64,000 bases of DNA from Gloeobacter morelensis MG652769. Lineage in GTDB: Bacteria; Cyanobacteriota; Cyanobacteriia; Gloeobacterales; Gloeobacteraceae. The translations under genes and the position numbers were made by a program. The stretch covers positions 1 to 64,000 of the forward strand of contig NZ_CP063846.1 in the NCBI RefSeq assembly GCF_021018745.1, given 5' to 3'. Of this stretch, positions 1,270-52,104 are shown piece by piece (the first letter of the stretch is position 1; each line of letters begins with the position of its first letter). The notes beneath the pieces were generated by a model. It was given only the letters and a program-made list of their open reading frames with translations, ran no database searches and was not told the DNA's origin.

Positions 1270-1327
1270 TCAATGTGTGAAAAGTGAAAATATTCACTAG
1301 TTGCCGAACGTGCGGGAGAGGGACAGC

Positions 1328-1582: not shown

Positions 1583-1658
1583 AGATAGACATCGCGGGCG
1601 GACGGCCTGGGTGCATCTCACTTCACGGTATGCGACCTCGGGGGCGTCACCCACCCCC

Positions 1659-1859
1659 TCATACAACTGGCGCCACATGCTCGTCGAGGTTTCCGAAAAA
1701 AACCCCGCAATCGGCGCAAGTACACCGCACGCTCAGCAGCTTGCCTGGGTGCGCCTCCTCTTCAACGTCCTGGATCTCGACCTCGATCCCGTCGCAGTCC
1801 CGGCAAGGAAGCAATGGGCGGCAATCGCTCTGTTCGTCGAATCGCTCTAAGTTCAGCAT
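1659..1859 (-). CDS. Small putative zinc-binding protein, 66 residues
   Basis: This minus-strand frame has two Cys-x2-Cys type clusters (CRDC near residue 18 and CTCADC near residue 47) separated by an acidic segment, a pattern typical of a small zinc ribbon. It starts 47 bases from the ATPase gene that runs the other way from 1907, so the two would be divergently transcribed; that supports the later start chosen for the ATPase. No clear ribosome-binding site was seen, so it stays tentative. Confidence 0.4.
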   Translation of the reverse strand: MLNLERFDEQSDCRPLLPCRDCDGIEVEIQDVEEEAHPGKLLSVRCTCADCGVFFGNLDEHVAPVV

Positions 1860-15937: not shown

Positions 15938-17611
15938 TCAATACAAATTTTCCGGATCGGCTTCGGGTGGCACCGGCAGCAGGGCCTCGGCCTCGGCCTG
16001 CCTCTTCTTGATGTCTTCTCCGGTCACCTCCTGCTGCTGGCGGTTGCCTTCGATAAGTTTCTTGCGCATGCGGGGCCAGGCGTCGGCGCACTTTTTCACT
16101 TCCTTGAGTTCGGCATTTGAAATTTTGATCGCGCGGCGGATCGGGATGTAACCCTCGTTGCCCCTCCGGAATCCGGGACTGAGGGCGATGACATGCCCGC
16201 GCAACAACCGCAAAAACTGGGCCGGTTCAAAAAGCTTGCGCGCTTGGACCTGATCGGAGGTGTTGTTGCTGCCTTTGCCGCCGGAGCTGCCCCTCGACTT
16301 GGTTTTGTACTCGATTTGCTGCTCGCCCAGGGTGTTGGCAAACTCCTCGGCCGACTTGAACTCGCCGGGGTTGAAGATGAGTTTGGTGGCCAGGGCGCCC
16401 CATATGGAACGGGCTTTCTCTTTGCCATAGACGTCCTCCACTTGGGCAAAATTTTGGAACCCGCACACGGTGACCAGGCCCTTCGAGCGCAATTCGTTGA
16501 TCCACTTGACCAGGTTGGGCAGATACAGGGTCGGCACCTCGTCGAGGGAGAGGATCAGGGGGTCTTTGCGCCGACGGGAAGTGTTGACGATCACGAGCCG
16601 GTCGAGCACGGCGGCGATCAATGGGGCGAGCACGTCGCGCAGTTCGCGGTTCATACCGAGCACCACGATTTGCTTCCCTTCCAAGTACAAAGGCAAGGTG
16701 GTCGTGCCGAGAAACGAATTGAGGACCGACGGCATCACGAAGCGCGAAAACAACAGACTCGCGGTGCCTACGATGCTGGCCACGGTCTTTTCGCTCTCCG
16801 AAAGGGAGATGAATTGATTGAAACTTGCCCGAACCCAGGGGTTGAGCTCGGCTCTTTCGAGGCGGGCCGAGAGGTTCTTCAGGCCGAGCAGCTGCTGACC
16901 CATGAGGATGTCGGGGTACCCGGTGCCTTTCGCCAGCATCAAAATCGCTTGGGTCAGCAGCTTGCCCGCGGGGCCAAAGAATCCGTCCTCTTTGGAACCC
17001 TTGAGATCGAAGTTGGCGTTGATAACCTCGGCGATCTGCCTGGCCGTCTCGGCGTCCTGCTCGTCGCGCAGGAAATCGAGAGGGTTGACCACGAGCGATT
17101 CGGGAAAGGTGGGCGCAAAAACATGGACCTTATACCCGTGCTTGACAGCGTAAGTGACGACGGTCTCGCACTGCGACTCGTCGGGGTACTTGTAGTCGTA
17201 CAGCAAAATCGGGAAGCCCTGACGCACCGCATCCCGGAGCATGGGATCGATCGCGCTAAATGTTTTGCCGCTGCCGGGTTGACCGACGACGCCGACGCCG
17301 CGCTCGGTGTTCGGCAGGTCGAGGCAGTGCGAGTAGTCCTTGCCCAATAAGCCGTCGGCGGGCAGGCCGATGCGCAGGGCCACCTCGTTGTGCTTGGCGG
17401 CCTTGCGCTGCTTCATGGCCTCGCGGCGGGCGGCCGTCGTCTCGACCTTGTCGCCAAAGCGACTGGTGCCGAGCTTGCTCTTGCGCGAAGAATTTGAGCC
17501 CCTGCGACTCAACTGCAAAAAAGCGAAGAGCGCCCCCGCCCCGAGAAGGCTCAGGTTCTCGGCGCTGCTAACGAAAGGGACAACGTACTCCTTGAAAACG
17601 TCCTGGGGCAT
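15938..17611 (-). CDS. virD4: VirD4/TraG-type coupling ATPase
   Basis: The coupling protein links the relaxosome to the transfer channel and pumps DNA. One N-terminal membrane segment is visible (NLSLLGAGALFAFLQL), Walker A GQPGSGKT at 110-117, and Walker B LILSLDEVP near 350 followed by NELRSKGLVTVCGFQNFAQ, a typical coupling-protein segment. The 557 residues are in the family range; the short membrane anchor (one instead of two clear spans) is a small oddity. Last of the recognisable channel genes; order VirB9-like then VirD4. Confidence 0.92.
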   Translation of the reverse strand: MPQDVFKEYVVPFVSSAENLSLLGAGALFAFLQLSRRGSNSSRKSKLGTSRFGDKVETTAARREAMKQRKAAKHNEVALRIGLPADGLLGKDYSHCLDLPNTERGVGVVGQPGSGKTFSAIDPMLRDAVRQGFPILLYDYKYPDESQCETVVTYAVKHGYKVHVFAPTFPESLVVNPLDFLRDEQDAETARQIAEVINANFDLKGSKEDGFFGPAGKLLTQAILMLAKGTGYPDILMGQQLLGLKNLSARLERAELNPWVRASFNQFISLSESEKTVASIVGTASLLFSRFVMPSVLNSFLGTTTLPLYLEGKQIVVLGMNRELRDVLAPLIAAVLDRLVIVNTSRRRKDPLILSLDEVPTLYLPNLVKWINELRSKGLVTVCGFQNFAQVEDVYGKEKARSIWGALATKLIFNPGEFKSAEEFANTLGEQQIEYKTKSRGSSGGKGSNNTSDQVQARKLFEPAQFLRLLRGHVIALSPGFRRGNEGYIPIRRAIKISNAELKEVKKCADAWPRMRKKLIEGNRQQQEVTGEDIKKRQAEAEALLPVPPEADPENLY

Positions 17612-17648: not shown

Positions 17649-18545
17649 TCATCGCCGTGCGGGGTCTTCCCCAAACGGGATGGACGCACCGCGCAGCGAC
17701 AAATTTTGAGAAGCGGCTTGGTTCTGGGGGAGCGACAGATTCCCCACGGGGCCGTTTTCGCTGGCTGGCGGCGCACCGCCGCCAGCCAGTCCCATGCCCG
17801 CAAGCCGGGTCACGAACGCCATCGACAGCCCCGCCGCCCGGGCGGAGCCTTCGAGGGGCTCGCCACCCCTGACGGCGGCCACGAATTCTCTGACTTTGCC
17901 GATGAGCGGGCTGTTCTCAGGCACCAAACCAGACGACCTGGCACTCGCCAGTCCCCTGAGCACGTCGTCGATTGTCGCCCTGCGCGAACCGGCCCCAAGA
18001 TCGATGAAGGCGGTCCCGGCGGAATCCGGATGGACAGTGACGCTGGTGTATTCGGGCTTCGGCGCCAACCAACGTCCGCTTCGATCGCGGACCGGCCCTA
18101 CGGCCACGATTTGGAAGCGATACCGCTTGAAAGTGCCCCTGGGGGTCTCATTGATGAGCGTCAGATATCCGTAGGGGCCGTAGGTCAAGGCGGAGTTTTT
18201 GGACCGCTTCACCTGGCGCAGGTGAAGCACCCTGGCTCCGCAATCGTCCGATTGCCCGCCCTGTTGCCCAGAAGAAACGGCAGACTCGACGAGGCAGGAA
18301 TCGTCTTCAATCGCTATCCGTGACTCGTCATCGAGCCAAATTTTGCGAATGATCTCGCCAGTAGGCAGGAAATCGAGATCAAGACTGGCCCCCGGCCAGA
18401 CTTTTATGACGGGCGGTGGATTGCCCTTGAGGCCGTCGGCGGTGCTCGCAAACATGCCACGGGAGGCGGGCGCGGCGTCCGCTGCAGACCCAACACCGAC
18501 GCAAAGCGCCAGGGCGAAGACCCCGGCGAGTGGAATTCTTTTCAT
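17649..18545 (-). CDS. VirB9-like outer-membrane channel component
   Basis: The 298-residue exported protein (signal peptide ending SAADAAPA) has a central beta domain with 'LDLDFLPTGEIIRKIWLDD' and 'GYLTLINETPRGTFKRYRFQIV', the arrangement of VirB9/TrbG/TraK N-terminal domains. The C-terminal third is Gly/Ser/Ala-rich. Known role: with VirB10 and a lipoprotein it forms the outer-membrane core complex. Its ATG overlaps the stop of the virB10-type gene (ATGA). No separate VirB7-type lipoprotein was found nearby. Confidence 0.7.
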   Translation of the reverse strand: MKRIPLAGVFALALCVGVGSAADAAPASRGMFASTADGLKGNPPPVIKVWPGASLDLDFLPTGEIIRKIWLDDESRIAIEDDSCLVESAVSSGQQGGQSDDCGARVLHLRQVKRSKNSALTYGPYGYLTLINETPRGTFKRYRFQIVAVGPVRDRSGRWLAPKPEYTSVTVHPDSAGTAFIDLGAGSRRATIDDVLRGLASARSSGLVPENSPLIGKVREFVAAVRGGEPLEGSARAAGLSMAFVTRLAGMGLAGGGAPPASENGPVGNLSLPQNQAASQNLSLRGASIPFGEDPARR

Positions 18546-19999
18546 CGCTCAAGCTCCACGGTCTTGTTGACGACTATCTGCACCGGCGTTTTCGCCGCCA
18601 GGAACCAGATGTTCGCCCTGGCGGCGGCGGCGGCGATCGCCTGCTGGCTTCTGCTTGCCAAGTTGCCGCTTACTGCCCCGGCGCCCCCTTCTATGATCCC
18701 GGCAATTAGGTTGATGGGCGGGTACTGCACGCTCGCGCCGACTCCGCCCGCCCCCGAAAACATGGACTGCGACGTGGCGCGGTTGAACAACTGCGCCCCT
18801 TTTTGGGCGGCGGCGGCGGCGGCCTGCCCAAAATCCTGAGAAGCGTACTCGGGTCCGCGATCGTTCAGGTTGTTCGCGATGAGCGGCCGGCCCTGGGAGC
18901 CCTGCACCCAAATCGCGTCCGCGGGCAGATCCGTCGCCAACCGCCTCCCGTCGACACTCTGCAAAACGGTCGTCGCCACCATGAGGACGAAACCGTTGCT
19001 TGAGACGCCCTTGAGCCGCGCCACGATCTCGGTCCCCGCAGGAAGCGCCACGGTGTTGTCGTCGAAAAGCAGGTCAGTGCTCAAACGCACGGTGGCCTGC
19101 TGCTGCAGCGAACCTTCGGAGATCTGGTTGCCTTCTGCAACGAGGGGGTTGACGATTTCGCCCTCGGCGGTGCTCGACACCAGCAATTGCCTCGCCAGCC
19201 TCCCTCTCAAAACTGGCACCTCCGCGCTCGCGAACTGGGTCGGGGCGTCGGCGGTTTCTTGCGGGGGGGGAACCCGGGATCCGCCGGCCATGGAGGCAGA
19301 CGCGCGCTCGGGCACCCTCGCCGAGTACTGCGCGTGCCTTATGGCGCCGTAGCTGCCCGACAGGGAAAGAGCTTGCCCCTGCGCCATCTGGGGCTTTTGC
19401 TGATCGGTGCTCACATTGGCCGTCGCGGTGACGGGCGGAGCCTGGGGGTAGGCAGGGGGCGCAGGGGCAAGGGGTGCAGTGGGGGCAGGGGGCGGCGGGA
19501 GCACCCGGACCGGCGGGCTGGCGGGCTTCGAAGCGGTTGTTGTGGAAGCGCCGGAGCCTCCGATGTCTTTGATCTGGTCGTCCTGTTTGCCGAGGGCGGC
19601 CTCGGTCTTCAGATTGCCCGTCGGGTCCTCGGGCGGTTCTTCCGCTTTGGGGGCGGCCTGGGCAACCGGGGCCGGGGCCGCTTTCGGGGCATAGTTGCCT
19701 CCCATGACCAGGAGCCCCCCAAACAAAAACACGACGCCGAGTCCGGTGCCCACGGCGCCGGCTTTCACAAGTGGGTTGTTCCAAAGCGCCCCGGTTTTGG
19801 GCAGTTCCGCCTCTTCCTCGCCGTCCGACTCGGATTCTTCGAGTTCGGCGGCAAGATCGACCGGCTCACTAGGTACAGGACCGGCTTTGGCGGCGATCCC
19901 GGCGAGCTGGGCAATTTCTTCTTCGCTGGGCTGGCGGTGGCCGTTGCCGGCGGCAACGGTGGAGTCGGGCTCGCCCTTGAAACTATCTGGGTTCATCAC
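18542..19999 (-). CDS. virB10: VirB10-type core-complex protein
   Basis: The layout is classic: an acidic cytoplasmic N-terminus, one span (AVGTGLGVVFLFGGLLVMGG near 95), a long Pro-rich periplasmic region and a C-terminal domain with LPAGTEIVARLKGV.. and a beta-barrel core ending in a hydrophobic helix-rich part. VirB10 spans both membranes and senses ATP use by the channel motors. Length 485. It overlaps the VirB8-like gene by four bases. Confidence 0.85.
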   Translation of the reverse strand: MMNPDSFKGEPDSTVAAGNGHRQPSEEEIAQLAGIAAKAGPVPSEPVDLAAELEESESDGEEEAELPKTGALWNNPLVKAGAVGTGLGVVFLFGGLLVMGGNYAPKAAPAPVAQAAPKAEEPPEDPTGNLKTEAALGKQDDQIKDIGGSGASTTTASKPASPPVRVLPPPPAPTAPLAPAPPAYPQAPPVTATANVSTDQQKPQMAQGQALSLSGSYGAIRHAQYSARVPERASASMAGGSRVPPPQETADAPTQFASAEVPVLRGRLARQLLVSSTAEGEIVNPLVAEGNQISEGSLQQQATVRLSTDLLFDDNTVALPAGTEIVARLKGVSSNGFVLMVATTVLQSVDGRRLATDLPADAIWVQGSQGRPLIANNLNDRGPEYASQDFGQAAAAAAQKGAQLFNRATSQSMFSGAGGVGASVQYPPINLIAGIIEGGAGAVSGNLASRSQQAIAAAAARANIWFLAAKTPVQIVVNKTVELER

Positions 20000-28031: not shown

Positions 28032-31000
28032 TCAATGTTCGAACCCGGTACCTTTGGAATGCTTCAACGACGCCTTCCCCTCTACACGGTGCCCCATCTT
28101 GAGGAACCTGCTGACGTCGTCTGGGCATAGGCTGTTGCGAGCGACTTTGCCTTCGACAACCGAGAGGATCACCCCGCGCTGTGCGGCGTTGACCGTCAGG
28201 TTTATTACGTCGCCCCGCAGAACGTAGCGGTTTCCTTCATACAGCCTGCGGCCTCCATCGATCGGCCGACCCCTGGAGGCGAGGATTTTGCAGGCAGCCG
28301 CCACCACGTCCCTCTCAATTTTCGCGTGGGAGGCGAGATCGGCGTCCATCATGCGCAGCACCTTCTCGACGGGCGGCTTGCCGTCTTTGTGGCTTTTACC
28401 CACCCTCGCGATCATATCGAGGTAGGGTTTCTCCATTGCAGCCGCAGCCCGGTACCAATCTCGCAGCTTTGACAGGGTGTCTCCCGGGTCGGCCACACCG
28501 GGAGACTGTGAAAGGTATTCGCCCAAGCGGGGGTTGACTCGCTCGATCATCTCGTGGACAACGGCCATGGCGGGGACGGAGGGGACATCCGCGGGCGCAT
28601 CGACATTCGGAATCGATAGATCAGAGGCCGTCTGAGAACCGACCAGGACTTCCGGTCCCGTGGGGGTTTTGGTGAGCGAGACAGATGCTTGCGAATTCTC
28701 GGAAACGTAGGGAAATTCCGCTGCGAAGGCGGGGGTATCCGGCTCGCGCTGCACAGACTGAGGCGGGGTTTCCAAGTGATGACCATCGGCGGCACCAACG
28801 GTCGCGGGAACCACCGTCGGTGCCGTTGTGCCGATAACGGTCTGGGGCTCTACCAGCGATCGAACCGTTTCTTTGGAAGTCGCATGCGGCGCCAACCGGC
28901 TCGGGTCTTGTATGGCGTGGGGCGCGGAGGTGTCCGGGGGCACCTCGACTGCGGGCGAGGCATCGAGCCTGACGTCAGCAACTTGCATCTCGCCCTCTAG
29001 CTCGGGCGCGGCCTGCTCGATGCGATTCAACTGGGGCAAGTCGATCCCGAGCATGTCGCGGGCCGTGTCCCTGCCGTCGAACGCGGCCAGGCGCGTTCCC
29101 TTGCTGTAAAGGGTGTCCAGCACGGCGCCTATGTGTTCTTTGGGCACAGCCAGGACCATCTGATCCCCGCTGGAGACAAACTCGGCACCCGCCGAGCGCA
29201 GAAGGTCCGTGTCCAGGTAAAACTTGCTTCCAATGGATTTCGATTTGACCGTCTGCAGCACATACCCGCCGCCTGCATTGAATCGCCGATCGGCCTTGAG
29301 GGTCAAGGCAGCGTCGGGGTGCGACTTGGCCTGGCCCCGGCGGTGGGTTCGCTCGTCGACGAAGCGCAAAACGTCTGCCGGGGTGGGAAGGACGACGGGT
29401 TCGCGTTCAAGTTTCTCGAAAAAGTCGTACCCCTGGGGCGCAAGCACGCCCTGCCGAACATCGCCGCGGTGATCGGTGAAATTGACGAGTTTGCCGTGAA
29501 ATTTCTCGAAGGCGCGCAAGACATTGCCGGTGAAAAGCTGCCGCTCCTCGCGGTTCGCCCCTTGGCGCTGGTCGAACAGTTCCAGAACCGGGGTGCCCAC
29601 CAGATCCGTCTCGGCGCTTTCCAGCTGGAAGTCTTCTCCGGTGTTGATCTGGCTGAACGGCAAAACGATCTCCTTGGCGGGATCGGCAACAAGGATCGCC
29701 ATTCGCCAGTTACTTGGGAGCGCCGGATTTGCGCCTTCGTGGGGCGACGCCCAGACCTGATCGACGACGCCGTACATGAAGTTGCCCGATTTCGTCGTAA
29801 GCCGCACCCGCGTCCCGGTGGGAAAAGCACCCACCGTGTCGGTCACCCGCGCAAGATGGCGGGACAATTTGTCGCTGTATGCCTGGCGTTTCTTTTGCGG
29901 TAGGCTCGCGAGTTTGGCACGTTCGAACTCGGCCGTCCCCTCGCACAATTGCCCGATGAGCGAAGCGGCCCGGAGCACCGATACCCGCTCGCAATCTTCG
30001 AGGGCGGTGGTCTCAGCAAGCCCCACCGCCCCGGCCACGCGCCCTAACACCTCCGCTGAGGTCAAAGGTTTGCGCGTCGTCTTCGCGTCGATCACCTCCA
30101 GCGCGACACCGGAGGCGAACGGGCTGTCGATGCCCTCGATGGCCGGCACCACCTCCAACGTCCCGACGGTGCGCGCGTCGAGATCGAGCGTCTCGGCCTC
30201 CAGCACCGATTCGCCCAGGGCAGCCTGCCGCTCGACGTAGGCGTTGTACTCCGTCTCGATGAGGTCGTAGAGCTTTTCTTGTTCGGCGATAGGGAGCAAT
30301 GGGATGCGCCCGGTCACGCGCGCGATTGCGTTCTCGTCGTAGGGATTTTCCCCAGTTCCGAGGGGGTGGTCGAGCCTGGCGTGCAAATCGGGGTAACCGT
30401 CCATGAGTTCCTTGACCACCCTGTCCCCGTACTCGTTCATGAAGTCGGGCACGTCACGCACGGTGACGGCGGTGGTGCGCGCGGCGGTGGTGTTCGCATT
30501 GAGGCTCGCCATTTTCTTGGCCAGCACCGCCCCGGGCCTCTTCTCCGCCGGGATGTCCGCCATCAGCAGCGTGTAGTTCGGTGGTACCACCTGGCCGGTA
30601 CGGTGCACCCGGCCGAGCATTTGCATGAACACGTCGATGTTCCGTTCGGGTTGAGCCACGATGAGGTGCCTGCGGCGCTGGTCGGCCACCTCGCGGCTCG
30701 CGTGCAGGCTGATGCCTGTGCTGCCGCTGCGGTTGAGGATCACGCAGTCGAGATCACCCGCGTTATAGGCACGGACCGTTTCGATGTTGGCGGCTTTGCT
30801 GCACTCGTCCGCGCCGCGGCGGTCGTAATAGCCCCGGCCGCCGCTGTAACGCACGACGTCCTTGCGCCCGGTGATCTCGCCGACTTTGAAACCGGCCTCG
30901 GTCAGCCTCGACTTGATGTGATCGATGGGGCTGATGGGCATCGAGCCGAAGTCCGTCTCGCGGATCGTTTCTCGGATCGACTCGAAAAGCCTGACCGCGT

Positions 31001-33905
31001 AGGGACCGAGTTCGGAATCGGTCAACTGGCGGTACTCCTTTTTGCCGAAAGCGTCGCCCATGCAGATGTCCCGCGAACGCACCAGGTAGCGCTCCAGCAG
31101 CCCCCCGAAGTCCAAATCCATGCCATCGCCCGGGCGCAGGTCGTTCTGGTCGGCGTATTCGCCGATGAAACTGCCCATCGTGTTCGCGACGGCGACGAGG
31201 GGCTTTTGGGCGCGGCCGGTGGCCGGGTCAGGGTTGCGCAGCACCGCGATGGCATGGTCGGCAGTCGCCTCGGCTTTCAAACTCAAGAGCATCTGGTCGA
31301 TCAGGTTGTGCATGATCGCCGTGAAGTTGGTGCTGGTGCAACCGGCCTGGCCGATGGAATTGTCCCGGGCGATGGCCTTGGCCTCCGCTTTGAAGGATTG
31401 ATCCAGCTTGGACACACCGGACTCTTTGGCTCGGTCGAATTCGAGGATCGATCGCAAGATGCCAGCCACGTTCTCCGCGGTGGGACGATCGACGGGCACG
31501 GTGACGCACTCGAAGCTCACCCCCTCGAAACTGCGCTCGCGGCGCACGTACTGGCCCGACAGGGCGAGCATCGTCGCGAGGCCCTGCTGCATGGGGACGC
31601 TCCCCTTTTGGATAAGACCGACGAGCGCTTCCAAACTGCCGACCGCGTGGCGCATGTCGGTGCGGCTGTAGAGGGTCATCACCGAGGGGCTCTTCGCGTA
31701 GGTGGCTGACGAGTAAAGCACGCCCTGGGCAGAAGACACCAGTTCGCGGGCGAACTCCCCCCGGCTTTTTCCGGACGATTCGCCCTCCGGCCCGCCCGCT
31801 TCGTGCGCCTCATCGAGGATAAGCAGCGACCGGGGCGCCATCGCACGCAGGAAGTCCCGCCGCAGCGTGTCCTCGCCCTTGACGGTTTGCATCTGGGAAT
31901 AAGTCGTGAAGATCCCCTCGTAAGAACTCCCCAGGTTCCCCGTTTGAATGGCCTGCTGCATCTGCAGCTTGTGGTTGTCGGTGTCGGTTTTTAGGCGGGA
32001 ACCGTCCGGCATCGGCACATTCAGATTCGAATTGGTGGGGAAGGGTTTGAAGCCCTGCATCCCGACGGCGGCCAGATCCCTGCCCATGTCCGCGTACAGG
32101 TCGGGTTTGCAGGTCACAAACAGCGGAATCCGACCGGTGCGGTTAGCGTAGCGGATGATGGCGGCGGCGACGCGCCCCTTGCCGATGCCGGTCTGATCCC
32201 CGTTGATAGCCCCCAAGCCGTTGTCGATGGCGTCGATGGCCATGGCCGTGGCGTCCACCTGCTCCGCCGCGAGCGCCGAAAAAAGTTCGCCCTCGTCGCG
32301 GAACCCCAGTTTGTCGCGCACGTACTCGTCGAGCGGCCCGACGCGCCTTTCGAGTGCGTCGAGGGCCTTGGAGAACACCAGCTCCAGGTTGCGGGGGATG
32401 AGCGTGCCGATGGCTGGCCCGCGGCTTTTCGGGCGGTAGGGAACTTGCAGCGGGGCGCTTCCTTCGGACGGAGTGCCCGGATTTCGATCTTCCTGATTTT
32501 GCACGCTCATTCCTCCCCCGTGTAACTCATCGCCTGCAACCACTCTTCCAATTCCACCTCTGCCTCTGCCAGATACGTCGCGGGCTCCAGCGGGGCTTCT
32601 ATCGGCAGCCAGTCCATCACCCCCAGCAAGCGCAACCGCTCCCTGAGTTCGTAATTGTCCACTGTGAGCGCCCTCGCCACCGATGCGGGAGTCGGCTCCT
32701 GCCGGTCGATCTCCACCAGGTGAAACATCCGACCGGAAATCAGGTAGTGCCTCACCAGCGCCAGAGCGTCCTGGAAACTCCCTTGCGCCAGCAGCAGCTT
32801 CTGCACCCGATCCGACAGCAGCTCCATGTACTCCGTTTCCGTCCGCACCGGCAATCTCCCCTCCCGCAATTCCACCGCCGCGAGCAATTCCGCCTGCGAG
32901 TCCCCGAGGGGCGGCTCCCACATCCACGGGCCGGTCGCGCTCCCATCTTTGTTCATGCACCAACTCCTCAAGTTGTTCAAAACTGCCGTATACTCTGGGC
33001 ACAGCGGCGGCCGGCAACGGCCGCGAAGAAATCCCGCGCCCTTCGATGCGCACCACGTCGACCGGGTACCCGGTGCCTTGGCGGCCATAGACCCCGCGGG
33101 CGATCGAGTAATGATCCACGACGTTGTAGTTGTCGTAAAGGGTTTTGTAGAATGCCCTGGCCGACCGGGTGTGATACTTTTCGGAGCGACGCGATTCGTC
33201 CCCCAATTTGCCTCCCAGTATGAGCACCGCCCTTCCGCCGTCCCGCATCGCCGCAAGTGCCTTCAAAGCGATAGCATGATCGACTTCGAGGGTCGGATAA
33301 TAACCGGTGTCGAACGGACGACCCCCTGCAGATTCCGCCAGCCGCCCAAAAGGTGGGTTGGCGACGACGACATCGAATTTCTCCACGGGCACGAACGAAG
33401 TGGCGTCCTCTCCCGTCACCCTCCCCATCCCCTGCAAACGCAACTCCTCCGCTCGCAGGGGATTTAGTTCGTTCGCCCAGACCCGAAGCGGGTCAGCCAG
33501 CAGCAGCAGCGCGCCGTGCCCGGCGGTCGGTTCGTAAACGCTTTTTCCAGGCCCGACGCCCGCTTGCAGCCCGGCCAACAAGGCGAGGGGCACAGGTGTG
33601 CTGTACGCCTGCCGGGCGATCGAGGTACTGGTGCGGGTACCCAGGGTAGGTTGCCTGGCATACAGATCGCACATTTGCCGGTAAGCGTCCACGGAATCGG
33701 AGGCCCCAGTAACCAGCCCGCGCGCCACCCTGACAATGGCCTTCTCGCAAGCCTCTTCGATCATTTTTGCGGCCTCGGTGCCCCCCTGGACCGGCTGGCC
33801 TAGGACTTCGCCGGCCAGCGCCCGCGCCTCCACAACGCTCGCGAAACGGCGTCCCTTGAGTAGCTCCTGCGAAAACGCCTCGACGAGGGCGCCTTCGTCA
33901 TGCAC
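28032..33905 (-). CDS. N6-adenine methyltransferase plus Strawberry-notch-like helicase (DarB-like)
   Basis: A single open frame of 1957 codons. N-terminal half: methyltransferase with EPTAGHGALL near 125 (SAM-binding motif I) and NPPFG near 183 (catalytic NPPF). C-terminal half: helicase with TGIGKGR near 573 (Walker A), LILDEAHEAGG near 695 (DEAH) and MLGRVHRTGQ near 1098 (motif VI), in the form of Strawberry-notch ATPases; about 700 further residues are unassigned. Known relative: phage P1 DarB, a methyltransferase-helicase that protects injected DNA from restriction. Between the halves (32507-32956) the frame reads Gly/Ala/Arg-rich while another gene runs in the +1 frame. The helicase could also start on its own: ATG 32510 overlaps the stop of that inner gene (ATGA), and GTG 32504 has GGGGGAGG upstream. 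So the product may be one fused protein or two. GTG 33905 has GGAGG five bases before it. Confidence 0.8.
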   Translation of the reverse strand: MHDEGALVEAFSQELLKGRRFASVVEARALAGEVLGQPVQGGTEAAKMIEEACEKAIVRVARGLVTGASDSVDAYRQMCDLYARQPTLGTRTSTSIARQAYSTPVPLALLAGLQAGVGPGKSVYEPTAGHGALLLLADPLRVWANELNPLRAEELRLQGMGRVTGEDATSFVPVEKFDVVVANPPFGRLAESAGGRPFDTGYYPTLEVDHAIALKALAAMRDGGRAVLILGGKLGDESRRSEKYHTRSARAFYKTLYDNYNVVDHYSIARGVYGRQGTGYPVDVVRIEGRGISSRPLPAAAVPRVYGSFEQLEELVHEQRWERDRPVDVGAAPRGLAGGIARGGGIAGGEIAGADGNGVHGAAVGSGAEAAAGAREFPGRSGAGEALPDFRSDVSPGGDRPAGADSRIGGEGAHSGQLRTQGAVALAGGDGLAADRSPAGARDVSGRGRGGIGRVVAGDELHGGGMSVQNQEDRNPGTPSEGSAPLQVPYRPKSRGPAIGTLIPRNLELVFSKALDALERRVGPLDEYVRDKLGFRDEGELFSALAAEQVDATAMAIDAIDNGLGAINGDQTGIGKGRVAAAIIRYANRTGRIPLFVTCKPDLYADMGRDLAAVGMQGFKPFPTNSNLNVPMPDGSRLKTDTDNHKLQMQQAIQTGNLGSSYEGIFTTYSQMQTVKGEDTLRRDFLRAMAPRSLLILDEAHEAGGPEGESSGKSRGEFARELVSSAQGVLYSSATYAKSPSVMTLYSRTDMRHAVGSLEALVGLIQKGSVPMQQGLATMLALSGQYVRRERSFEGVSFECVTVPVDRPTAENVAGILRSILEFDRAKESGVSKLDQSFKAEAKAIARDNSIGQAGCTSTNFTAIMHNLIDQMLLSLKAEATADHAIAVLRNPDPATGRAQKPLVAVANTMGSFIGEYADQNDLRPGDGMDLDFGGLLERYLVRSRDICMGDAFGKKEYRQLTDSELGPYAVRLFESIRETIRETDFGSMPISPIDHIKSRLTEAGFKVGEITGRKDVVRYSGGRGYYDRRGADECSKAANIETVRAYNAGDLDCVILNRSGSTGISLHASREVADQRRRHLIVAQPERNIDVFMQMLGRVHRTGQVVPPNYTLLMADIPAEKRPGAVLAKKMASLNANTTAARTTAVTVRDVPDFMNEYGDRVVKELMDGYPDLHARLDHPLGTGENPYDENAIARVTGRIPLLPIAEQEKLYDLIETEYNAYVERQAALGESVLEAETLDLDARTVGTLEVVPAIEGIDSPFASGVALEVIDAKTTRKPLTSAEVLGRVAGAVGLAETTALEDCERVSVLRAASLIGQLCEGTAEFERAKLASLPQKKRQAYSDKLSRHLARVTDTVGAFPTGTRVRLTTKSGNFMYGVVDQVWASPHEGANPALPSNWRMAILVADPAKEIVLPFSQINTGEDFQLESAETDLVGTPVLELFDQRQGANREERQLFTGNVLRAFEKFHGKLVNFTDHRGDVRQGVLAPQGYDFFEKLEREPVVLPTPADVLRFVDERTHRRGQAKSHPDAALTLKADRRFNAGGGYVLQTVKSKSIGSKFYLDTDLLRSAGAEFVSSGDQMVLAVPKEHIGAVLDTLYSKGTRLAAFDGRDTARDMLGIDLPQLNRIEQAAPELEGEMQVADVRLDASPAVEVPPDTSAPHAIQDPSRLAPHATSKETVRSLVEPQTVIGTTAPTVVPATVGAADGHHLETPPQSVQREPDTPAFAAEFPYVSENSQASVSLTKTPTGPEVLVGSQTASDLSIPNVDAPADVPSVPAMAVVHEMIERVNPRLGEYLSQSPGVADPGDTLSKLRDWYRAAAAMEKPYLDMIARVGKSHKDGKPPVEKVLRMMDADLASHAKIERDVVAAACKILASRGRPIDGGRRLYEGNRYVLRGDVINLTVNAAQRGVILSVVEGKVARNSLCPDDVSRFLKMGHRVEGKASLKHSKGTGFEH
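32507..32956 (-). CDS. 149-residue protein nested in the methyltransferase-helicase frame
   Basis: It starts at ATG 32956, with GAGGAG seven bases upstream, and stops at 32507 where the helicase start overlaps (ATGA). The product has ordinary protein composition, with acidic helices (AELLAAVELREGRL, TVDNYELRERLRLLGVMDWL, TYLAEAEVELEEWLQAM), whereas the outer frame over the same bases is low-complexity. Codon positions thus point to this frame as the selected one. No family recognised; given its neighbours it may be an accessory of the antirestriction proteins. Confidence 0.65.
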   Translation of the reverse strand: MNKDGSATGPWMWEPPLGDSQAELLAAVELREGRLPVRTETEYMELLSDRVQKLLLAQGSFQDALALVRHYLISGRMFHLVEIDRQEPTPASVARALTVDNYELRERLRLLGVMDWLPIEAPLEPATYLAEAEVELEEWLQAMSYTGEE

Positions 33906-34179
33906 CGCAGCCTCCACGGCCTTCGACCCGGGAACGGACCGGGTCGGCGTAGAATCCTTGCAATTTGTCGATCAACACCGCGCTCTGGGTCTGCGAGTAC
34001 ACAACTTCGCCATCCCACAGCATCTCCAGAAGACCGGGGGGAGGGTCGATCGGCAACCAACCGACCCTGTCGGCTCCGGGTCTGTCGAACATATGCGCGA
34101 CGATCCGGCCATCGACGCGAATTTGAACCACCCGGGGTCGGCGCTGTGGCGCGGGCTCGCTTTGGCTTTGATCCGGCAT
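33898..34179 (-). CDS. Hypothetical protein, 93 residues
   Basis: ATG 34179 has GGAG seven bases upstream. The product is beta-rich with a clear central part (RVVQIRVDGRIVAHMFDRPG, GLLEMLWDGEVVYSQTQSAVL). Its stop overlaps the start of the methyltransferase gene, so they are co-translated. No family recognised. Confidence 0.6.
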   Translation of the reverse strand: MPDQSQSEPAPQRRPRVVQIRVDGRIVAHMFDRPGADRVGWLPIDPPPGLLEMLWDGEVVYSQTQSAVLIDKLQGFYADPVRSRVEGRGGCGA

Positions 34180-34263: not shown

Positions 34264-36420
34264 TCAAGGTTCGTATTCTGTACCCCGTTGGATGGCGTCG
34301 AAGGTGTCGTCGAAGTGTTTGCGCAATGCCCGCTCCCTCTCTATACCGGCGCTCCGAGCAGCTATCTTCTGAGCCTGGAGGCTGTGCGAGAGGATGGCGC
34401 GGACCTCTTCCGCGCGGTGCCCCGCTTTGAAGGCCATGGCCGCCAATTCCTTGTCGGTCGCTCTGCCGGCTCGGCGCCGCTTGAGCATCCGTAGGTATTT
34501 CTGATACAGCAATCGGCTCGCGTCTCCCTGCGGAGTCAGCGGCGTCGCAAGGAGGCCACCGCCTTCTCCACCCTCACGACCGAATTCGACAAGGTCTGCT
34601 GCTGCTTCTGCATCGGCAGTACGGCCATGTACCATATCAAACCCACGATGGCCGCGGTCTGCAGGGCCATCACCCCGCCCACTGCCCACGGGTTGAAAAT
34701 CCACTTGAGGGTCCGCCCCACGCTCTTCTGCTCCTCCACCTGCGCGGCCAGATCCGCTATCGGCTGATCGAGGTACTCGCGCGTTATCGCCAACTGCTTG
34801 GTCACCTGCTCGGACCACTTGGCTATCGACGCCTCGATCACTTTGCGGTTGGCCTCGCCCTGATCCTGGTTGGCCTTCACCTGCTTGCCCAGTTTCTCCG
34901 TCCAATCCTCCAGGCTGCCTTCGAACGATTTTTGCATCGATTCGGTCACCTTCCTCTGGAGATCGCTCCATTCTCCTATCGCCTGGTCCAGGCTCTGCTG
35001 GGTCTGGCGCATTTCTATCTCGGTGGCCAGGCGCTTGTGCTCGTCCGACAGACGATTCATCGCCGCTAACAGATTCACCAGTTCGTTCTGGCGCTGCTGG
35101 CCGATGAGCTTCAAAACCAAATCCGATTGGGCCTGGCGCTGATCGAAGGCGCCGATCATCTCCGCCACCCCCTTGAGGGAAGTGCGAACTGTCAGCAGCA
35201 GATCGCTGTGCGAAATCAATTTCTCCGTCTGTACAGTTTGAGAATTCTCCAACCTCCCCAGAAGCTCCGCCGTCTGCTTCACCCAATCCGGGATGTCGAG
35301 AAGGGGCGTCAGTTTCTCGATCGAACTTTCCGTTTGTGCTGACGACACTTCCTGGGCTTTGCCCAGCCGCTGTACCCCCTCCGACAGCTCCGCCAACCGC
35401 TCTTTGTGGATCCGCACCAGGGACGCCCGCAGCTCCTCGACCGAAGTCAGCAGGTCCGCCAGCATCGGCCGCCAATTTTCCGGCGGACTGTGCCCCTCCG
35501 GTTCCGGCCCGCTCCCGGGCTCCGGCTGGCGGTTTGCATGCCGGGGTCTGCCCAGCTGCTCCAGGCGCTCCTGAACCCTGTCGAGATCCGCACGGTTCAC
35601 CCCCGGGACTGGGTGCGCGGTCGTCGGGTTGTCGTTCGAGTTCATGGCTCACTCCAAGGTAATTTTTCAAACCGTTCAAAGTAAACGCTTTGCCCAGGGA
35701 CGCTCCCCGGACGGCCACCGGACAGTCTTTCAGCCTGTAGCTGATCCCACAGGCCCGCCCGTCCGGACCGAGGTGCGTCCGCACGTCCACCCCGCGCGAC
35801 GACAGGCGGCCCACCAATTCCCGGACCGTCATTGAACTGCGCGCCTCGGCCAAAACCGCATACTGCAAACGGGTTTTGTTGCTAACGGCGCCACGGGCGA
35901 GCATCTCGCGTTCTTCTTTTTGGGCGGTGCGCACGAGGGGCACCGCGTTGTTCACCGGCTGCAGCCCGAACTCCGCCTCTATTCGCCTGCAGGCCCGTTG
36001 CCCACGCCACCAGTCGTGGCGATCCGAGATCACCCCGCCGTCGAGCGCCACCCTGCAAGCGACGACGTGCAAGTGGGGGTGTTCTGTGTCCCGGTGGCGA
36101 ATGTACACGGCCTGGGTTTTGGCGAGATCGAATCCCATCAGTTCCAGGTACCGGTTCGCGATTTCCGCCATGCGGTCGTTTTCGGAGCACCTATCGTCCG
36201 CCAGCCGCTCCCCCGGCGGGAAAGCGATCGCGACGTGGTAAACGGGTTTGTGCAACGCCGGACGCAGACGGGCGCTGACGCGGAATTCGGCGGCGAGGGA
36301 TTCGGGATCGGTACCGGCCATCGACCCCCCCACGATCTCGGGCCGCTTTCGCTCCAGCAGCGCGTAGCGCAACACCGAGGCGAAGCCGCGCCCTTTAGAC
36401 TGCTTGGCGATCATCGGCAC
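34264..36420 (-). CDS. Conjugative relaxase with a nested gene
   Basis: The relaxase nicks one strand at oriT, becomes attached to it through a Tyr and leads it into the channel. The N-terminal domain (1-260) has HRDTEHPHLH at 109-118, the three-His metal motif of the Pfam Relaxase/MOBP group; Tyr19 (VLRYALLE) is the likely nucleophile. From about residue 260 to 630 the frame is Gly/Asp/Arg/Pro-rich and coincides with the nested gene 34536-35645. After that a normal helical C-terminus returns (LLYQKYLRMLKRRRAGRATD..), evidence that the outer frame really is read through. This recalls RSF1010 mobA, which contains mobB in another frame. Its start overlaps the end of the MobC-like gene. Confidence 0.85.
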   Translation of the reverse strand: MPMIAKQSKGRGFASVLRYALLERKRPEIVGGSMAGTDPESLAAEFRVSARLRPALHKPVYHVAIAFPPGERLADDRCSENDRMAEIANRYLELMGFDLAKTQAVYIRHRDTEHPHLHVVACRVALDGGVISDRHDWWRGQRACRRIEAEFGLQPVNNAVPLVRTAQKEEREMLARGAVSNKTRLQYAVLAEARSSMTVRELVGRLSSRGVDVRTHLGPDGRACGISYRLKDCPVAVRGASLGKAFTLNGLKNYLGVSHELERQPDDRAPSPGGEPCGSRQGSGAPGAAGQTPACKPPAGARERAGTGGAQSAGKLAADAGGPADFGRGAAGVPGADPQRAVGGAVGGGTAAGQSPGSVVSTNGKFDRETDAPSRHPGLGEADGGASGEVGEFSNCTDGEIDFAQRSAADSSHFPQGGGGDDRRLRSAPGPIGFGFEAHRPAAPERTGESVSGDESSVGRAQAPGHRDRNAPDPAEPGPGDRRMERSPEEGDRIDAKIVRRQPGGLDGETGQAGEGQPGSGRGQPQSDRGVDSQVVRAGDQAVGDNARVPRSADSGSGRAGGGAEERGADPQVDFQPVGSGRGDGPADRGHRGFDMVHGRTADAEAAADLVEFGREGGEGGGLLATPLTPQGDASRLLYQKYLRMLKRRRAGRATDKELAAMAFKAGHRAEEVRAILSHSLQAQKIAARSAGIERERALRKHFDDTFDAIQRGTEYEP
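34536..35645 (-). CDS. MobB-like coiled-coil membrane protein nested in the relaxase gene
   Basis: ATG 35645 has TTGGAG about seven bases upstream. The 369-residue product is a long coiled coil (e.g. HKERLAELSEGVQRLGKAQE, RLSDEHKRLATEIEMRQTQQ) with one membrane span near the end (VGGVMALQTAAIVGLIWYMA) and a short coiled tail. It is encoded entirely within the relaxase frame, shifted +1. In RSF1010 the similarly nested MobB is a membrane protein that stabilises the relaxosome and contacts the coupling protein; the same role is inferred here from position and topology, not from sequence identity. Confidence 0.75.
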   Translation of the reverse strand: MNSNDNPTTAHPVPGVNRADLDRVQERLEQLGRPRHANRQPEPGSGPEPEGHSPPENWRPMLADLLTSVEELRASLVRIHKERLAELSEGVQRLGKAQEVSSAQTESSIEKLTPLLDIPDWVKQTAELLGRLENSQTVQTEKLISHSDLLLTVRTSLKGVAEMIGAFDQRQAQSDLVLKLIGQQRQNELVNLLAAMNRLSDEHKRLATEIEMRQTQQSLDQAIGEWSDLQRKVTESMQKSFEGSLEDWTEKLGKQVKANQDQGEANRKVIEASIAKWSEQVTKQLAITREYLDQPIADLAAQVEEQKSVGRTLKWIFNPWAVGGVMALQTAAIVGLIWYMAVLPMQKQQQTLSNSVVRVEKAVASLRRR

Positions 36421-36925
36421 CGATCAGCTGTTCGCGGACAATTTTCAACTGGGCGATCAAGTCGCCCAACAATTCCGGGGGAACGGGAGAAGCCACCCCG
36501 CGGTTCAGGTGACGCAGGTACTGGTTAAGCAGACAACCGATTCGCCCAAGTTCAACATAAACAAGCTGGTTCACGCCGGGCACCCGGACCACGTCGGCAG
36601 GCGGCTGCCCCAGCGCGGCCAGCCTCACAAAATCGGCGCGGCTAAGGCCGCTGAGCGCCGCCCGCTCGTCGATGACGCTCAGCTGGGCAGCCGTCAGCCT
36701 GAAAACGACCCGCTTCTGTGCACCTCCCCGAATTGGCGCATCGGGGAAACCGTCTTTGCCATCCGAAGCCGTGGAGGTTTGCGACTCCATAGGCTTTAGC
36801 GCCCCAAGCGCGAGGCTGCGGCAATAATCGCTCCGGTCCATGCCCGCCTCCCGGGCGCGCTCGTCGATGATACGCACCTGCTCGATGCTCGCTCGGATCT
36901 CTATGCGTCTGTCTAGATTTTTCAT
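36395..36925 (-). CDS. Relaxosome accessory protein with two MobC/ribbon-helix-helix-like halves
   Basis: The 176 residues contain two similar units: RIEIRASIEQVRIIDERARE..GMDRSDYCRSLALG (about 5-40) and RVVFRLTAAQLSVIDERAAL..GLSRADFVRLAALG (about 72-107). Each is a beta strand plus two helices as in MobC-type DNA-binding proteins, which bind oriT and help the relaxase. Usually one unit dimerises; here two are joined in one chain. A C-terminal part (LNQYLRHLNRG..LIAQLKIVREQL) fits the MobC family. ATG 36925 is preferred to the upstream open frame. It overlaps the relaxase start. Confidence 0.75.
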   Translation of the reverse strand: MKNLDRRIEIRASIEQVRIIDERAREAGMDRSDYCRSLALGALKPMESQTSTASDGKDGFPDAPIRGGAQKRVVFRLTAAQLSVIDERAALSGLSRADFVRLAALGQPPADVVRVPGVNQLVYVELGRIGCLLNQYLRHLNRGVASPVPPELLGDLIAQLKIVREQLIGADDRQAV

Positions 36926-37079
36926 CGCCACGACCACCCGCCCGGACAGCAGATGCCCCGGGCCATAACTTGCTTCCCCGGGCGATCCGGAGCCGGGCAC
37001 CGGGCACTCGCGCCCTGCCTTTCCAGAGATAGGTCAACCGCAAGGGCGCAGCGTTTCGTTGCCATCGGCAGCCGCCCCT

Positions 37080-48792: not shown

Positions 48793-51700
48793 GTGAGCGG
48801 CGAGACACTCCTACCGATGGACACGGGTGGCTACGGCAGCCACCCGGACAACCCCCTCAACGAACACGCTCCCAGGCGGCACGACCTGTTCGGGCGGGTG
48901 GTCAAACCGGACCCGCCCTTTGCTTTCGGGTCGCGCGCGCCCTGTCCCATTTGCCAGTCGCTTACTTGTGGCGTCGCCAAAGACCAGCGGGTGTTCTGCC
49001 GCTCGGGGGCCACCGAAGCGACCGGCTACGACTATCTGGGGGAGCTGCGCAATCGCGACGGCCGCCGGGCGGGCCACTTTGCGCCGAAGGGCCGCGGGCT
49101 CTCCAGGCGGTCCAGGAGGCGCAAAGGGCTGGTGGACATCGGATGGCTTTTTTCCAGGCCGGTGCTGCTCGAACCTGCCACCAGGCTCGACTGGGAAAAC
49201 AGCGGCGTCGGGGCCGCGCTGTACGAACTGTGCGTGCGCGAGCACCCGGAGCACGAGGGCTGGCTCGGCACCGGTGTGGATCCATTCACGGGCGGGCGCA
49301 CCGGTTTCTACCAGTGGAAACCTCGCTGGAAAGGCTTTGCCACGGCCCCAGGGGTCCACCGAGGCAGTGGCAAACACAAAGAACCGCCCAAATACCTTTC
49401 CCCAAAGGGATACGCGCTGGAGCCTGTGTTTCTGCCGGTGCCCGAGCAGGTACGCGAACGCGTCGAGACGCGCTACCCGCACTTGGTGGACAGGTCGTTG
49501 CCTTTCTGGCTTTGGGTGATGCGCAACCCCGGCATCCGCGTGATCGTCACCGAGGGCCTCAAGAAAGCCGGTTCTTTGCTGTGGAGCGGCATCCCCGCCG
49601 TTTCGATTCCCGGGGTGGGCACCTGCAGGCCGCACGGCGTTCTGCATCCGTGGCTCGCCGCGTTGTCGGAAGGGGGCCGCGAAATCCTGCTCACCTTCGA
49701 CAACGACATTGCCCTCAAAAGCTCCGTGCGCCTGGCTCTGGGCGTGCTCGGTCGCCTGCTGGGCAAATCGGGTGCCCAGGTGCGGGTGCCCCAGATTCCC
49801 GACGGCCCGGACAAGGGCATAGACGACTGGAAGGTATCCCGGGGCGAGGACGCCTTGCTCGCGGTGCTCGATTCGGCACCGACTTATCACGATTGGCTTC
49901 TGGGTATCCCCGCGCTGCCCGAGGGGGTCGAGCACGTCCGCATCTGCGAAGCGGACATCAAGGACATACTCGCCGGCCGACAGTTGCCGTGGATGACCTG
50001 GCTCAAGTCGGGTCTGGGCACCGGCAAAAGCGCGGCGCAGATCCCGGTGGTGGCGAGCGCCGCTACGGCCCTGGTCACCGTCCACCGCATCGATCTAGTG
50101 CGCCAGCTGGGGCAGCGCCTGGGCACGGCCAACTACCTGAGCCACTCGTTGGCCAGCCCCAAGATGGCCTGTTGCATCGACAGCCTGCACAAACTGCTGC
50201 AGGAGGAGTACGAGGTGCTAATCCTCGACGAGGTGGAGCAGGTGCTGCGCCACCTGTGCGGCGAGACGGTAGCCCGGGGCGGCCACATCGACGAGATCCT
50301 CGACGTGCTGCTGCGGGTGATGGACCGGGCGAAGCACGTCGTCGTGGCCGACGCCCATCTCGGCCCGCTCACCTACCGCAAGCTGCACCGGGCGGGCGAA
50401 ACGCTGTTTATCGAGAACACCCACCGCACCGGTGGCAAGATGTTCCGCCGCCACCCCAGGCGCGAACACCTGCAGGCGGCTTTTTACCTGGCTCTCGACG
50501 GCGGCGAGCGGGCCGTTTACTGCGCCAACTCCAAAAAGGAAATCAAGGCGCTCGCGGAGACCCTCGCGCGGGAGTACCCGCACCTGAAGGGGCTGGCCGT
50601 CCACGCCGACAACCGGGGGGACGATGTCAAAGATTTTTTGGCCAACATCGATCTGAAGGCACTCGAACTGGACTACCTCCTGTACAGCCCCTCGATCTGC
50701 ACCGGCTACAGTATCCAGGCGAGGCACTTCGACCGCTTGTTCTTGTCCGGGGTGGCGGGCATCAACACGCCGTTCGATCTGTTTCAGCAGCAGGGACGAT
50801 TGCGCCACCCGCTCGGCGGGACGGTCGATTTTTGGATCGACAGCCGCGGCCGGGGCAGCTTCGTGCGCTCGCGGTTCGTGAGCGACGCCTACGAGCTCAT
50901 CGAGCGGCAAAGCTACGCCGATCCGTTCACCACCGAGCGGCGCCGGTGGTTCAGCGACCTGTTCGCCCTGGTCCGCGAGGTCGAATCGAACGGCCGGTTG
51001 CACCTGCGCGAAATTTTCGAGGTTTTGGCCGAGGACGAGGGACACACCGTCGCCGACGCCCCGGCGCTTGCCAAATCTGCCGAGGCGACGGCTGCCGAGC
51101 GCGCCAAACTCGGCCGGGCGCAAATCAAGCACGCGCGCCTGGTAGGTCTTCTGGGCGCCCCAGACGCTTCGCCCGCCCGCTACAACCGTCTGGTCGAGCT
51201 GCAGAAGACGCGCGGCTACCTGCCCCTCGGGGAGATTTACGAGTGCGAACGGTACCGCTTGCGCAACTTCTACGGCCGACCCGTCAGCCCGGAGCTGATC
51301 GAGGACGACGACGAGGGACGGCTCAAAGCCAAGATTCGCCGGTTCGAACCGCTGTTGTGGTCGCAGGAGGAACTGCGGCAGCGGGATGCCGACCGGGCGG
51401 AAGACTACAGAGAAACCAGGCCCAACTACCGCCTGCAGAACCGGGTGATGTGGGAGTTGCTCGAATCGACAGGGCTGCTGGCCGGGTGCGATCTCCACAC
51501 CCGTGCGCTTCCGGAGATCGCGGCGGCGGACCTCGATCGCTTCGTAGAAGTGGCTCTAGCCCGCCGCTCGGAAATCTACGGGCTGTGGCACCTCACCCTG
51601 CCGCAAGACTTCAAAGCCAAGCCCATGCAGTTTTTGCGCACCCTGCTCACGCGCCTGGGCCTGAAGCTGACCTGCCAGCAGCGCCGGGTTCCCATCGCGG

Positions 51701-52104
51701 ATCCCAGGGTGTCACAACCAAAAAAATCAGGATCTATAGACAAGCAACAACCGGCCCGTGACACCGGCAGCGCGGTGCGGGGCAATCCCCGTGTCCGCTT
51801 TTACAGGCTCTGCGGTGAGACGTTGGAGCAAATGCTCGCGCTTTGTGAGCAACAGGCTCAGCTCTATCACAACCAGCGGGCGATCGAGCGCATGGTGGCC
51901 GTCCAGGCGGAGGCGCACGGTTTGGTCAGAGCGGATTTTTTTGATTACCTCGGCGATCACTTCGGTCCTTTGCGGCCTTGCTTTGAGCAGTGGCTCGACG
52001 CGCTGCTCGACGAAGCGTTGCCGGCGTTGGCGGTGGCCCACAAATACGCCCGCGTCGGCGTGCTTTCGGCCCAAGCAGAGGCCGAGCATCCCCCAGATAC
52101 GTAA
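48793..52104 (+). CDS. cyRepA1: CyRepA1-family plasmid replication protein
   Basis: This 1103-residue protein has the architecture of the CyRepA1 family of cyanobacterial plasmid initiators: an N-terminal zinc motif (CPICQSLTCG near 51), a DUF3854/TOPRIM-like region (TEGLKKAGSLLWSGIPAVSI near 252, LTFDND near 299, KGIDDW near 340), and a helicase region with Walker A GLGTGKSA near 406, LILDEVEQ near 477 and FQQQGRLRHP near 664. It should be a primase-helicase that starts plasmid copying. GTG 48793 is used; ATG 48817 is also possible and neither has a strong ribosome-binding site. A 27-base palindrome follows its stop. Confidence 0.88.
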   Translation: MSGETLLPMDTGGYGSHPDNPLNEHAPRRHDLFGRVVKPDPPFAFGSRAPCPICQSLTCGVAKDQRVFCRSGATEATGYDYLGELRNRDGRRAGHFAPKGRGLSRRSRRRKGLVDIGWLFSRPVLLEPATRLDWENSGVGAALYELCVREHPEHEGWLGTGVDPFTGGRTGFYQWKPRWKGFATAPGVHRGSGKHKEPPKYLSPKGYALEPVFLPVPEQVRERVETRYPHLVDRSLPFWLWVMRNPGIRVIVTEGLKKAGSLLWSGIPAVSIPGVGTCRPHGVLHPWLAALSEGGREILLTFDNDIALKSSVRLALGVLGRLLGKSGAQVRVPQIPDGPDKGIDDWKVSRGEDALLAVLDSAPTYHDWLLGIPALPEGVEHVRICEADIKDILAGRQLPWMTWLKSGLGTGKSAAQIPVVASAATALVTVHRIDLVRQLGQRLGTANYLSHSLASPKMACCIDSLHKLLQEEYEVLILDEVEQVLRHLCGETVARGGHIDEILDVLLRVMDRAKHVVVADAHLGPLTYRKLHRAGETLFIENTHRTGGKMFRRHPRREHLQAAFYLALDGGERAVYCANSKKEIKALAETLAREYPHLKGLAVHADNRGDDVKDFLANIDLKALELDYLLYSPSICTGYSIQARHFDRLFLSGVAGINTPFDLFQQQGRLRHPLGGTVDFWIDSRGRGSFVRSRFVSDAYELIERQSYADPFTTERRRWFSDLFALVREVESNGRLHLREIFEVLAEDEGHTVADAPALAKSAEATAAERAKLGRAQIKHARLVGLLGAPDASPARYNRLVELQKTRGYLPLGEIYECERYRLRNFYGRPVSPELIEDDDEGRLKAKIRRFEPLLWSQEELRQRDADRAEDYRETRPNYRLQNRVMWELLESTGLLAGCDLHTRALPEIAAADLDRFVEVALARRSEIYGLWHLTLPQDFKAKPMQFLRTLLTRLGLKLTCQQRRVPIADPRVSQPKKSGSIDKQQPARDTGSAVRGNPRVRFYRLCGETLEQMLALCEQQAQLYHNQRAIERMVAVQAEAHGLVRADFFDYLGDHFGPLRPCFEQWLDALLDEALPALAVAHKYARVGVLSAQAEAEHPPDT

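Follow-up and report, generated by a model that had tools for sequence, protein, structure and literature searches.

Genes encoded inside relaxase genes are known from plasmid mobilization systems. In RSF1010, mobB and repB overlap mobA (PMC5572225); ColE-type plasmids encode MobB and MobD internally (PMC9282650), and ColE1 has the additional internal gene mbeD (PMC12857230, PMC9282650). In the IncQ1 plasmids RSF1010/R1162, the inner ATG lies at relaxase codon 250, on a His-Glu pair, and opens a 137-aa protein, MobB (PF17511), with one membrane span near its C-terminus. Judging by the title of a 2007 paper by Parker and Meyer, as given in PMC3297438, which cites it, the transport signals of the R1162 relaxase reportedly require MobB.

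We analyzed a window of 64,000 nucleotides from Gloeobacter morelensis MG652769 (bases 1–64000 of a contig of 172,328 bp; the genome comprises three contigs and 5.10 Mb), in which a relaxase gene holds a second open reading frame of 369 codons entirely within its own, in the +1 frame. The inner ATG, at 35645, lies just beyond the relaxase domain, at codon 257, the equivalent of the IncQ1 position. We consider the best explanation, and quite a probable one, to be a nested pair of the mobA/mobB type, borne by a plasmid with type IV secretion genes. The features concerned are as follows.

36395–37000, minus strand: relaxosome accessory gene, MobC/NikA-like, ribbon-helix-helix, upstream of and overlapping the relaxase start (Pfam NikA-like PF21983, E = 4e-22)
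34264–36420, minus strand: outer gene, relaxase (mobA-like), 718 aa from a GTG
35647–36414, minus strand: relaxase domain, outer residues 1–256, motif HRDTEHPHLHVV (Pfam and comparison with the closest relative)
35652–35655, minus strand: GGAG, Shine-Dalgarno-like, 6–7 nt ahead of the inner ATG
34536–35645, minus strand: inner gene, +1 frame, 369 aa, helical/coiled coil (mobB-like), with its own ATG and a homologue in the closest relative
34617–34673, minus strand: predicted membrane span, inner residues 325–343 (best 19-residue hydropathy 1.96)
34264–34535, minus strand: outer C-terminal helical tail, about 91 aa, beyond the inner stop (aligned to the tail of the closest relative)
15938–17611, minus strand: type IV coupling protein of the same plasmid (Pfam TraG-D_C, E = 1.6e-26; TrwB_AAD_bind, E = 5.5e-25)
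18542–19999, minus strand: VirB10/TrbI-like protein of the same plasmid (Pfam TrbI, E = 1.3e-5, below cut-off)

The outer protein probably starts at the conserved ATG at 36414, which would give it 716 aa. It matches Pfam Relaxase (PF03432) over residues 26–153 (E = 2.2e-28; 99.6 bits, above the cut-off of 24.6), and its best NCBIfam match is TraI/MobA(P) (NF041893), at 75 bits and thus under that model's 250-bit cut-off; the IncQ1 plasmid, in contrast, is typed MOBQ. The relaxase motif, HRDTEHPHLHVV, contains three His residues and no HEN motif. Across the overlap, the outer translation becomes 21% Gly, 14% Ala and 10% Arg, and hydrophobic residues fall to 11% from 30% before it, returning to 24% after it. 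The tail that follows is 26% identical to its counterpart in the closest relative (z = 4.3) and has no match in a Pfam search. Its appearance had suggested RepB_primase_C, a candidate that Pfam did not support and that we do not claim; unlike RSF1010 MobA, the outer protein ends in a short helical piece, and the Pfam search found no RepB-type primase domain in it.

Read in the inner frame, the overlap has a GC1/2/3 of 0.64/0.40/0.81, against 0.66/0.48/0.79 for the relaxase domain in its own frame, so that its base composition by codon position fits the inner frame and not the outer. Shine-Dalgarno-like sites comparable to the GGAG stand before other inner ATGs (AGGAG in ColE1 and in the relatives L003 and L006). 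The inner product is predicted to be helical with one C-terminal membrane span, which lies directly behind an LKWIFNPW motif and 26 residues before the C-terminus (24 in IncQ1 MobB, 34 in the Plesiomonas/Serratia-type protein L034). An earlier note, made from the sequence alone, had given both frames with exact coordinates (35645–34536 within 34264–36420), had described a relaxase frame of odd composition between two normal ends and had assigned the inner gene its own ATG and ribosome-binding site, all of which holds here. It had also called the product a coiled coil with a membrane span; the span stands, and the coiled coil is backed only as 'helical', because the AlphaFold2 model consists of helices at low confidence (mean pLDDT 43.5).

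Profile searches with the inner protein gave no Pfam or NCBIfam family and no convincing PHROGs family; weak matches to LMBR1, SMC and tape-measure families were set aside as coiled-coil noise. Against Mobilization_B (PF17511) it gave no match up to E = 1, a Pfam search gave none against MbeB_N (PF04837), and a profile comparison with MobB returned a probability of 4.5% (E 0.009 as a single comparison). With no family match and a borderline profile comparison, the MobB-like role that we propose is argued from position, frame, helical make-up and membrane span, that is, from placement and build and not from PF17511 membership.

The closest relative is L003 (G006:C66; the same contig as L038), from a metagenome-assembled genome of an uncultured cyanobacterium. 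Its relaxase domain is 46% identical to that of the window, and its relaxase gene holds a 291-aa +1 ORF at the same place. Homology between the two inner proteins is evident from BLASTP (E = 4e-17), and both have a VG..LKWIF.PW motif before the membrane span. Across the overlap, conservation between the window and L003 is strong in the inner frame (z = 14.2) and absent from the outer (z = −0.1); outside it, the relaxase domain and the tail beyond the inner stop are both conserved, the tail continuing the relaxase frame in the window and in L003 alike. Because the inner frame alone is conserved within the overlap and both flanks are conserved outside it, the outer protein appears to cross the overlap as an unconserved linker. 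On this comparison, selection acts on the inner frame as protein throughout the overlap, and the outer frame links conserved sequence on either side. The sequence shows a relaxase gene read through as a single protein made of relaxase domain, low-complexity linker and conserved helical tail. The earlier note's view of a real gene nested in a relaxase gene after the manner of RSF1010 is borne out.

In closer pairs of nested relaxases, both frames are conserved in the overlap, with outer-frame z values of 12.7 for L006/L036 and 25.8 for L034/L094. In these pairs, the least conserved outer position is 1 (the inner wobble base) in the overlap and 3 in the relaxase domain. A clear homologue of the window inner protein was found in one relative only, L003, and the collections contained no further plasmids at 70–90% identity. 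None turned up among the plasmid records for either the window or the L003 inner protein, a scan of viral contigs with the inner alignment gave no match, and a scan of genome contigs returned only L038 and a weak planctomycete match.

Set beside the described systems, the window pair resembles IncQ1 mobA/mobB in that the inner gene lies fully inside the relaxase gene in the +1 frame and encodes a protein with one membrane span near the C-terminus, and it differs in the lack of a detectable MobB sequence match and in size. The inner protein, with its 369 aa, is the largest that we examined, compared with 291 aa in L003, 166–228 in other proteobacterial plasmids, 172 for ColE1 MbeB and 137 for IncQ1 MobB, in agreement with the note's claim of a much larger version. 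The Plesiomonas/Serratia pairs (L034 and L094) nest a +1 gene that starts at the same codon, and the L034 relaxase is 39% identical to that of the window, but their inner proteins (166–167 aa) are members of Pfam Mobilization_B (E = 3.7e-13 for L034, with matches also for L094 and the IncQ1 plasmid L091) and their outer tails are RepB-type primases. An IncQ2-type plasmid (L093) and an Aeromonas sobria plasmid (L092) likewise have a MOBP relaxase gene in which a nested coiled-coil membrane protein starts at the same codon in the +1 frame, with other outer tails and with inner proteins of about 200–228 aa whose sequences are not detectably related to that of the window. ColE1 mbeB also encodes, in the +1 frame of a relaxase gene (mbeA), a membrane-spanning mobilization protein, but its relaxase is of the HEN type, its product belongs to MbeB_N and its start lies in another alignment column.

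To place the arrangement more widely, relaxases were gathered from relatives, plasmid records and a sample of the phylum (30 of 386 genomes with a match), and called nested when an ORF in the +1 frame, 120 aa or longer (a threshold of our own), started near the end of the relaxase domain. Nine of 73 rows of the relaxase tree qualified (the window, L003, L006, L036, L025, L034, L094, L092 and L093), a proportion that is not a frequency because L034, L092, L093 and L094 were fetched for an annotation or match that suggested an inner gene. Hydropathy gives no membrane span for the inner proteins of L006 and L036. The inner frame is missing from most of the cyanobacterial relaxases sampled, an outcome that the note had named as counting against a nested gene; the nearest relative, on the other hand, keeps the frame intact and conserved. 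The nested state changes at least four times on the tree, in which support for the deep branches is weak.

In 9 of 11 cases, the inner ATG occupies a single alignment column, in the +1 frame, on a Tyr or His codon followed by Glu or Asp; these are the window, L003, L006, L036, L034, L094, L092, L093 and IncQ1, the alignment of the last being partly gapped, and the inner starts of L025 and ColE1 fall outside the column. Because frame and relaxase codon are the same, we read the arrangement as IncQ-type and not as an independent invention, and the independent origin proposed in the note is not supported, since the inner genes of IncQ1 and of two proteobacterial plasmid groups start in the same column and frame. 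The shared placement favors common descent, re-use of a ready-made ATG being a possible alternative. The window pair is thus, by placement and not by inner-protein homology to MobB, an enlarged relative of the mobA/mobB arrangement.

The same survey bears on whether the inner protein could instead be an unrelated newcomer, produced by overprinting in a Gloeobacter-like lineage and serving some role other than relaxosome tethering, such as surface exclusion or partition. We judge such an origin unlikely: the protein has no detectable family, its profile comparison with MobB is borderline, the nested state has changed repeatedly on the tree and the separate MobB-like genes of Nostocales adjoin a ParA-like gene, but the frame and start column are identical to those of IncQ-type mobB, and the membrane span sits near the C-terminus at the position that it has in IncQ-type MobB.

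Other arrangements of MobB-like genes came to light alongside. On an 8,839-bp plasmid of the same genome (L025, G000:C3), a second relaxase is accompanied by an inner membrane-protein gene (1209–1829, minus strand, 203 aa) that begins inside the relaxase gene in the +1 frame and extends past its stop, an overlap and not a full nesting. The L025 protein aligns with those of L092 and L093 and of the un-nested L089 and L090, and a comparison of this group with the IncQ MobB alignment gives a match (probability 95%, E = 3e-8). In the mobilizable plasmids of Tolypothrix (L089, 1627–2370) and Nostoc (L090, 2404–3144), the MobB-like coiled-coil membrane protein has a gene of its own, which shares an operon with a ParA-like ATPase, the L090 operon being divergent from mobC and a relaxase. 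A single function may thus exist in interchangeable nested and free-standing forms. In the gene tables of L034, L037, L091 and L094, the inner MobB or MbeB is listed and the enclosing relaxase is missing (the PLSDB table is incomplete by its own account), and relaxase surveys that rely on such plasmid gene tables can overlook relaxases.

A different reading of the locus takes it as three consecutive genes, a short relaxase, a coiled-coil gene and a small helical gene, with the outer frame open by chance and not translated as one protein. How far an open outer frame speaks against this depends on the expectation for this DNA. When the codons of the inner gene were shuffled synonymously, 7.5 outer-frame stops were expected in the window and none is seen, and the outer frame stayed open in 0 of 5,000 shuffles. 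This uncorrected test was dropped, as it over-predicts −1-frame stops 2.2-fold in 15 ordinary window genes (111 observed versus 248 expected); codon-context bias in this plasmid inflates naive overlap tests. With the over-prediction shown by this control taken into account, the window P is corrected to about 0.03. The shuffle test is unbiased in AT-richer relaxases (ratio 1.06), and in the AT-richer relatives both frames are open against expectation. Calibrated stop-avoidance P values are about 2e-5 for L003, 0.001 for L036, 0.012 for L006 and 0.034 for the window, and the test is uninformative for L034 and L025; that all six loci are open has P of about 2e-12 if they are independent. The outer frame of the window taken singly is accordingly weak evidence by this measure, and the family is strong evidence.

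In the ordinary genes of the window, such as 48793–52104 (plus strand), −1-frame stops reach only 45% of the synonymous-shuffle expectation, and one −1 frame of an ordinary window gene is open by chance for 988 codons. Because chance-open −1 frames are this common, openness of the outer frame is less telling in the window, and its continuity there leans on L003 and the conserved tail.

A three-gene layout would fit these common chance-open frames, the corrected P of 0.034 and the unconserved outer sequence between the window and L003. We nonetheless hold it to be improbable. In L003, which is less GC-rich, 11 outer-frame stops are expected and none is found, and L006 and L036 avoid stops in the same manner; the conserved tail shares the relaxase frame in both L003 and the window; in that frame, relatives such as L034 have a primase domain at this position; and the closer pairs retain outer-frame similarity over the overlap.

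That the inner ORF is no gene at all, only an unexpressed chance opening in a GC-rich gene with few +1-frame stops (2.5 per 100 codons), can be dismissed as extremely improbable, since its 369 codons exceed every +1 frame of the 15 ordinary window genes (maximum 240; maximum 159 in 59 non-nested cyanobacterial relaxase ORFs), the L003 homologue is conserved in its own frame, which excludes chance short of an error in L003, codon-position GC fits the inner frame, and GGAG and ATG are in place.

For the nested mobA/mobB-type pair that we prefer, the following working can be envisioned. Ribosomes would initiate the inner gene at its own GGAG on the shared mRNA, so that both proteins are made together. 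The inner protein would sit in the inner membrane with its coiled coil in the cytoplasm, where it could keep the relaxosome (relaxase, MobC-like protein and oriT DNA) near the coupling protein encoded at 15938–17611, as is thought for R1162/RSF1010 MobB. The overlap would be tolerated because the relaxase needs merely a flexible linker there.

The gene that adjoins the relaxase contains a second case.

28032–33917, minus strand: DarB-like N6-methylase/strawberry-notch helicase gene, adjoining the relaxase gene (Pfam Helicase_C_4, E = 7e-30; AAA_34, E = 3e-19)
32507–32956, minus strand: second nested gene, +1 frame, 149 aa, ATG at 32956, in the methylase-helicase linker (conservation in cyanobacteria)

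The methylase-helicase dyad has been described (PMC5512222). Its linker is 27% Gly in the host frame, and the +1 frame reads like an ordinary protein, with GAGGAG ahead of its ATG. Among the cyanobacterial homologues examined, all those ordered methylase-linker-helicase have an ORF at the same place and in the same frame (Chroococcidiopsis L097, Leptolyngbya L098, Picosynechococcus L099 and genomes G020, G083, G209, G316 and G405); in Leptolyngbya boryana L101, which has a different domain order, it was not found. The inner frame is conserved and the outer is not between the window and G083 (z = 18.9 versus −0.4), with 6.4 versus 1.3 for L097 and an inner z below 3 for several other homologues. 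Four residues of the window protein, Trp13, Pro15, Arg50 and Pro118, do not vary among seven aligned sequences. Position-matched +1 ORFs are also present in methylase-helicase genes of the alphaproteobacterium Thalassospira (L100) and of viral contigs L115–L119, with z values (below 3.5) too low to establish a sequence relation, and the distant proteobacterial homologues L120–L124 showed no comparable +1 ORF. Uncorrected stop-avoidance values for this gene carry the bias that the control revealed for GC-rich genes.

The second nested protein has no Pfam or PHROGs match. Its AlphaFold2 model has a pLDDT of 48.5, and a structure search with this model and that of the first inner protein was set aside, both being too poor. 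The gene is in none of the plasmid records' gene lists, drawn from the incomplete PLSDB gene table, and we found no description of it in the open-access literature; it is apparently undescribed.

Taken together, the relaxase pair is a known kind of arrangement, enlarged, and its notable features are its size, the clean split between a conserved frame and a linker frame, and the second nested gene next to it. As a 1.1-kb nested pair in which one frame is conserved and the other serves as a linker, it shows overprinting in nature on a large scale, and it widens the range of the mobA/mobB arrangement to include an early-branching lineage of cyanobacteria. Nested genes are suppressed by gene callers and in annotation, with the result that relaxosome proteins are overlooked or, as in several plasmid records, the relaxase itself goes unlisted. 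We lean toward a broader view, in which nesting is a recurrent device of transferable elements: the disordered linkers of multidomain transfer proteins would host +1-frame genes, and this plasmid would have two side by side, the second, in the DarB-like linker, representing an apparently undescribed family that is conserved in cyanobacterial plasmids and has position-matched counterparts in an alphaproteobacterium and viral contigs. This second gene, to which the same reasoning led, suggests that the linkers of plasmid and phage multidomain proteins merit a systematic search.
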